From assembly GCA_018141785.1 (NCBI GenBank), contig CP073341.1, positions 3,751,422-3,815,421 of the forward strand: a DNA stretch of 64,000 nucleotides, read 5' to 3'. The position numbers and the translations under genes were made by a program. The stretch is from Candidatus Paraprochloron terpiosi LD05. Lineage in GTDB: Bacteria; Cyanobacteriota; Cyanobacteriia; Cyanobacteriales; Prochloraceae. How positions within the stretch are numbered: position 1 is the first letter of the stretch; each line of letters opens with the position of its first letter. Below are positions 12,753-13,030 of this stretch, in pieces. Under the pieces are notes generated by a model, which saw only the letters and a program-made list of their open reading frames with translations, was not told the origin of the DNA and did no database searches.

Positions 12753-13030
12753 TTTTGCGTCTCGTCTACAGATGTGTAATGTGTTCCTCGCCAATGTTTT
12801 CTAAGCTTGTTGGGCCAACCACACTGCTTTACCCCTACTAAGGCTGTTTAATGATTGGCGACAGATTTATTAACCTTTCTGGCCTGAAGGGCCAGAAAGT
12901 TAAATCATTAGGCTGGAAAGCACCTGAAGGTGTCGTGACGAAGGAAAACGTAGTCGGAGAAGGACTGAGGCTGGTCAGCTACCTGAAGCTGAAGGCATGA
13001 AGCCCAAGGGCCTAGGCCGGGGGTGCTGAC
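12753..13030 (-). ncRNA. Putative omega RNA of the intact IscB
   Basis: The region upstream of iscB shares ordered sequence blocks with the region upstream of the truncated iscB at 47571-47818. The blocks include GCCAATGTTTT, CTGTTTAA, AAAACGTAG (12945-12953 here) and AGGCTGGTCA (12968-12977 here). In described IscB systems the guide RNA scaffold lies in exactly this place and the guide precedes it. The scaffold 5' end should then lie near 13030 and the guide just beyond, in the last codons of the antitoxin gene. A 44-bp palindrome (12866-12909) absent from the second locus interrupts the scaffold. Boundaries are inferred. Confidence 0.7.
12866..12909. repeat. TTAACCTTTC palindrome (family B) inside the omega-RNA region
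   Basis: The arms are TTAACCTTTCTGGCC and GGGCCAGAAAGTTAA around TGAA, with outer bases that also pair (ATTTA, TAAATCATT). A near-identical copy lies at 26259-26303 inside a ferritin-like gene, and a related start is at 59997. The homologous omega-RNA region at 47.6 kb lacks it. Confidence 0.8.

Follow-up and report, generated by a model that had tools for sequence, protein, structure and literature searches.

Cyanobacterial RNase P RNA genes (rnpB) reportedly contain STRR repeats, which Vioque is said to have described in 1997 and which are short tandem repeats, not palindromes. Very small, untagged, dispersed mobile repeats of cyanobacteria were, reportedly, the subject of work by Elhai et al. 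in 2008. According to the excerpts cited here, Rickettsia palindromic elements (RPEs; 105–146 bp, tagged with CGTC; PMC2229807, PMC3733652) occur in the genes for tmRNA and RNase P (M1) RNA and are possibly neutral there (PMC2229807). REP hairpins of ~21–65 nt, single or paired, are dispersed and come with RAYT transposases (PMC6006769), and the cited portions of two papers define them by a GTAG/GTGG or CGTC tetranucleotide at the hairpin foot (PMC3733652, PMC6006769).

For the guide RNAs of IscB-type systems, the excerpts cited describe a nexus pseudoknot hairpin in OgeuIscB, with an internal loop at A106–A108 (PMC9640706), and in DtIsrB (PMC9581776). Among titles and abstract openings of the IscB and omega-RNA literature on palindromes or repeats, a body of text in which subscription journals are little covered, no mobile palindrome in an omega RNA was reported. 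Mobile palindromes in RNA genes seem to be familiar from Rickettsia and, reportedly, from cyanobacterial rnpB, and the omega RNA seems to be new as a host. Here we analyse a 64,000-nucleotide stretch of the Candidatus Paraprochloron terpiosi LD05 genome (the window) and conclude that the omega-RNA gene of an IscB element has probably acquired a small, non-autonomous 42-bp mobile palindrome by insertion.

Results

An uninterrupted iscB and its omega RNA

A match to the IscB omega RNA (HEARO, RF02033) occupies positions 12776–13030 of the window on the reverse strand and spans the full model (positions 1–211), scoring 92.6 bits in Rfam cmscan against a gathering cut-off of 83. The RNA match ends at 12776 and iscB starts directly downstream at 12752. 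The gene (11481–12752, reverse strand) encodes 423 aa without interruption, combines RRXRR with HNH and scores 470 bits against NCBIfam guided_IscB, in agreement with the sequence-only reading, which had called this IscB intact. The RNA that accompanies iscB is an authentic IscB omega RNA. The presumed downstream end of the IscB element lies at 11374–11442 (reverse strand) and matches the end of an iscB-less copy, L114. The dN/dS of iscB was uninformative, with synonymous changes saturated in 7 comparisons (pS 0.78–0.86, pN 0.18–0.28).

Genome-wide there are 13 HEARO matches, of which 11 exceed the cut-off and 12 span the full model, and only two full-length copies of iscB lie near them, the 423-aa one included. 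A second full-length IscB ORF (425 aa; L013, G000:C1:1504773) has a partial HEARO match of 28.7 bits upstream. The second omega RNA of the window (47597–47817, reverse strand) reaches 144.2 bits and measures 221 nt, as against 255 nt for the first; its locus holds a truncated iscB of 199 aa (46971–47570, reverse strand). Palindromes of another, very abundant family with a GCCATTAATCAATGCC loop, present in many copies in G000 and G002, also stand in the window at 11440–11473 and 59549–59576, one directly after iscB and one inside a group II intron match.

An additional hairpin in the omega RNA

A palindrome had been reported at 12866–12909, inside the omega-RNA region, and a stem-loop does stand there within the HEARO match, comprising 44 nt on the reverse strand (omega-RNA nt 122–165). 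By comparison with other copies, the palindrome unit itself measures 42 bp (12866–12907) and reads TTTATTAAC-hairpin-TTAAATCA; bases 12908–12909 may be flank. The unit contains a perfect 10-bp hairpin core with a 5-nt loop (12875–12899, arms 12875–12884 and 12890–12899), which the predicted fold extends to 14 pairs with one bulge. The RNA strand of the 44 nt folds at −17.6 kcal/mol (z −4.39), and 0 of 200 shuffled sequences were equally stable. Two matches to the core pattern occur in the window, against 0.00 expected from 100 shuffles, the other one (26269–26293) lying in a second, intergenic copy of the 42-bp palindrome on the forward strand (L017, 26260–26301).

The RNA of L114, found in the same-genus genome G002, lacks the insert and is nearly identical to the window copy over the stretch between the insertion point and the start of iscB. 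It is a non-orthologous comparison (another locus, no iscB and a different 5' half), in which the joint AGCCT-GTCGC-TCTGTCG corresponds to AGCCT-44 nt-TCTGTCG in the window copy, with 3–5 nt unaccounted for at the joint. The 44 nt thus stand in place of 5 nt; the long hairpin that the sequence-only reading saw added to the guide RNA comes to a net gain of 39 nt relative to L114 and about 14 predicted pairs. L114 itself (G002:C4) is a solo omega RNA with an IscB-element end, an iscB-less derivative.

Other comparisons agree in lacking the hairpin. The Rfam model passes over 63 nt of the window copy as a local insert where 25 are expected, the 42-bp unit is found in 0 of the 11 other full-length omega RNAs of the genome, and the second locus of the window, at 47.6 kb, has an ordinary stem-loop at this place, as the sequence-only reading had observed. 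From these alignments the palindrome appears to be a derived insertion in the omega RNA and not part of the ancestral scaffold, which answers a question that the same reading had raised. Hairpin lengths do vary among HEARO RNAs, and the hairpin could in principle be ancestral or have grown convergently in this omega-RNA lineage, with the dispersed copies derived from it. The same 42-bp limits recur, however, at sites outside omega RNAs, and we take the 11 other full-length own copies and L114 to rule this origin out; it is scarcely credible.

At clpC, no orthologous empty site was found in the two same-genus genomes: G001 is without the whole stretch 10762–13488, and the G002 contig begins at 13117. 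The stretch absent from G001 runs between the gene at 10313–10761 and clpC, and because G001 is without it, iscB and the neighbouring small ORF are an insertion relative to G001.

A dispersed, lineage-restricted palindrome family

The single-hairpin core occurs at 8 places with at most 3 mismatches in the 3.84-Mb genome; because three of these share flanks, they amount to 6 flank-distinct sites. At 4 flank-distinct sites the limits of the 42-bp unit are identical, running from TTTATTAAC (once TATATTAAC) to TTAAATCA, in line with the earlier proposal that the palindrome at 12866–12909 is dispersed and was inserted secondarily. A related double-hairpin form of 68 bp, with ends of similar type, has 12 core places and 5 flank-distinct full sites, and is also present in G002 at no fewer than 3 places, that is, at least on C229, C247 and C8. 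Among 39 further genomes of the order, including two of the same genus, none had the single-hairpin core at ≤2 mismatches, and the phage records and viral contigs searched held no match. As judged from these searches, the 42-bp palindrome belongs to a lineage-restricted set of small palindromic elements.

Compared with uninterrupted relatives, the 68-bp form shows exact joints at two sites, an OrfB_IS605/TnpB gene and a second repeated host sequence (L144-type site). At both there is no target-site duplication, the feature sought for a MITE of a DDE transposon. In two identical copies of tnpB (L149 and L153, at 483 kb and 2.94 Mb of G000) the gene is interrupted by the 68-bp double palindrome, and nine paralogous stretches in the genome are without it. 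A shortened palindrome copy (L021, G000:C1:3122631) is enclosed by a CCCCACCCC/GGGGTGGGG inverted repeat.

With regard to an IS200/IS605 (Y1) origin, target duplication is lacking at the two sites of the 68-bp form and the genome contains Y1 genes, but no ends common to the palindromes and these genes were found. The core pattern is absent from the 9 Y1_Tnp loci of the genome taken with 1.5 kb of flank, so that no Y1 gene carrying the palindrome was seen there; the end motif TTTATTRAC alone occurs at 2 of the 9. A preference for hairpin-forming DNA as target was likewise unsupported when 12 flank-distinct sites were compared with 400 random window sites (Mann-Whitney p = 0.24).

The insertion lies in the nexus-pseudoknot hairpin

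The interrupted stem-loop corresponds to about positions 93–127 of the HEARO model. We compared 53 omega RNAs, namely 12 from this genome, L114, 16 relatives of at least 241 nt among the matches listed and 24 others of ordinary length, and scored covariation in 48 of them, having dropped own_L012, L188, L197, L199 and L219 for want of a pattern match. Covariation links the loop of this stem to the tail that lies 3' of the nexus stem: across 22 distinct loop/tail combinations, 77 of 110 pairs are standard, against a mean of 66.4 (sd 2.86) in shuffles, of which 1 in 10000 reaches the observed 77. On the strength of this covariation we take the stem to be the nexus pseudoknot hairpin of OgeuIscB and DtIsrB, a mapping of our own.

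In the window copy the distal part of this hairpin survives (AGGU-loop-GCCU; 12910–12925, reverse strand), with 4 of 4 distal pairs kept. Its loop strand UUUCC (12915–12919, reverse strand) could form 4 of 5 pairs with the tail strand GGAAC, 3' of the nexus stem (12783–12787, reverse strand). The lower four pairs are lost or fortuitous, two of the four arising by chance pairing with the insert; the lower stem of L114 also has 2 of 4. The element enters in the 3' strand after the fourth pair, beside the model's CUCU internal loop, and by this alignment the palindrome takes the place of some of that strand of the nexus-pseudoknot hairpin. The sequence-only reading had considered a neutral insertion in a peripheral loop; the peripheral position does not hold, as the element stands in the 3' strand of a stem that belongs to the core in published work.

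Possible consequences for guide-RNA function

The cited portions of two studies speak for the sensitivity of this hairpin: pseudoknot mutations abolish nicking in DtIsrB (PMC9581776), and even small truncations of the nexus hairpin lowered OrufIscB activity in human cells (PMC13180657). Relative to L114, the window copy also carries extra pair-breaking changes, which affect one pair each in the nexus stem and the following stem-loop and two pairs in the central stem, and enforcing its canonical helices costs 6.0 kcal/mol, compared with 0.0 in L114. Leaving aside the interrupted hairpin and the 5' adaptor domain, a count by eye of the NC lines gives 5 poorly scoring non-standard pairs, against 1–5 in the seven insert-free own-genome copies L001–L007. 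Such features would be expected of a dead omega RNA, in which the insertion and later substitutions have ended guiding, leaving the intact IscB either unused or served in trans by different omega RNAs of the genome; 10 other omega RNAs of the genome lie above the Rfam cut-off, and the excerpt of PMC9581776 mentions standalone omega RNAs that act with IscB in trans. We treat this as a serious candidate that falls short of the favoured explanation: the count of poor pairs overlaps that of insert-free copies, the 3' half, pseudoknot tail included, is almost unchanged from L114, and the iscB that goes with it is open and one of so few full-length copies.

Misfolding of the core by the insert was unsupported. 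With the insert confined to itself the prediction does not change, the core being equally poorly folded both ways (S3 probability 0.02), and a low S3 probability is common, with values below 0.5 in 17 of the 48 omega RNAs tested, the window copy included. In these models, the predicted weakness of the omega-RNA core is not caused by the insert.

The self-contained insert, the retained distal pairs and the retained pseudoknot complementarity would all suit a tolerated insertion, with the hairpin pointing out of the RNP at a natural internal loop and activity kept, as proposed for the Rickettsia tmRNA and RNase P RNA. In our mapping, the internal loop that the insert adjoins is A106–A108 of OgeuIscB (described in the cited part of PMC9640706). 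Other omega RNAs also carry hairpin repeats: a related palindrome stands in L011 of the same genome (306380–306688), at the junction before the central stem, and other hairpin repeats were found in L008, in L185 of G002, L191 of G001, L183 and L184 of G025 and several omega RNAs of G004. In L191, a 28-nt insert in an apical loop is followed by an uninterrupted IscB. Against a tolerated insertion stand the sensitivity of the nexus hairpin in the published excerpts (PMC9581776, PMC13180657) and the different, peripheral place of the L191 insert, and we consider full tolerance of this kind somewhat unlikely.

For 14 of the 16 long relatives, ~1.6 kb of downstream DNA was examined: a full-length, stop-free IscB follows in 3 (L182, L191 and L195), a partial IscB with a stop in 1, and none in 10. 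The length of L182 comes from a tandem duplication and L195 has no clear insert, which leaves L191 as the clear example in which a hairpin repeat goes with an open IscB. In L183 and L184, two omega RNAs of G025, a hairpin element of ~115 nt sits in the apical loop of a long 3' hairpin.

The stable hairpin also shares the strand of iscB and precedes its start by 114 bp, a position in which it might have been co-opted to regulate iscB as a terminator, attenuator or RNase site. Terminator-like sites numbered 0, however, against 1.0 expected in shuffles, a result on which an intrinsic terminator was rejected, and the 42-bp unit is dispersed at unrelated sites. Regulatory co-option is accordingly rated very improbable. 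No promoter-like site was found either.

Taking the insertion as given, the analysis leans towards impaired omega-RNA function, a lean that sets published core sensitivity and pair-breaking changes against a self-folding insert, kept pseudoknot strands and an open iscB, and that stops short of a claim. An impaired or dead RNA is somewhat favoured, a tolerated insertion is the less probable though substantial outcome, and a useful one is improbable. A single insertion by itself shows neither tolerance nor harm.

Discussion

In the explanation that we favour, a non-autonomous 42-bp palindrome would have inserted into the omega-RNA gene. At two sites of the 68-bp form the joints are exact and the target is not duplicated, which would fit a single-strand, IS200/IS605-like mechanism of the Y1 type. 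In the transcript, a self-contained hairpin of about 14 pairs is predicted to branch off the nexus-pseudoknot hairpin on its 3' strand, next to the internal loop; the four distal pairs would remain, as would the complementarity of loop and tail for the pseudoknot. The RNP would then have to accommodate a large additional helix, and the lower stem of a core hairpin would be weakened, so that RNA-guided activity in cis would probably be reduced. A complete loss need not follow, since the lower stem of the uninserted L114 is itself irregular (2 of 4 pairs).

Set beside HEARO/IscB omega RNAs, the window RNA shares the full-length Rfam match, the downstream iscB and the nexus-pseudoknot complementarity, and differs by a foreign hairpin within the nexus-pseudoknot hairpin. 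The very small cyanobacterial repeats ascribed to Elhai et al. would, by their description, resemble the 42-bp unit in small size, lack of a tag and dispersal. The STRR repeats, too, are said to be repeat DNA inside a cyanobacterial RNA gene, although they are tandem and the window unit is palindromic. With REPs the unit has hairpin size and dispersal in common; it differs in that it contains none of the tetranucleotides GTAG, GTGG or CGTC and no Y1 locus of this genome carries its core. As excerpted here, RPEs are likewise small dispersed palindromes inside structured RNA genes (PMC2229807), but they are 105–146 bp long and CGTC-tagged (PMC2229807, PMC3733652), features absent from the untagged 42-bp unit, and their hosts are tmRNA and M1 RNA, whereas the host here is the guide RNA of a mobile nuclease.

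With this locus, the guide RNA of a mobile nuclease joins the short list of RNA genes with mobile palindromes. A 42-letter hairpin in the guide-RNA gene of IscB is a parasite of a parasite, and it amounts to an experiment of nature on a part of the IscB guide scaffold that ranks among the most constrained. Should the RNA remain functional, extra RNA modules could be accommodated at a point within the nexus-pseudoknot hairpin; if it fails, one selfish element disarms another. More speculatively, and with considerable doubt, omega RNAs might be recurrent landing sites for small mobile palindromes, with a guide core that tolerates them, even as a 44-nt extension of the nexus-pseudoknot hairpin. 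If that were true, mobile palindromes would act as natural engineers that shape the architecture of omega RNAs and, as hyperparasites, diversify the IscB guide scaffold.
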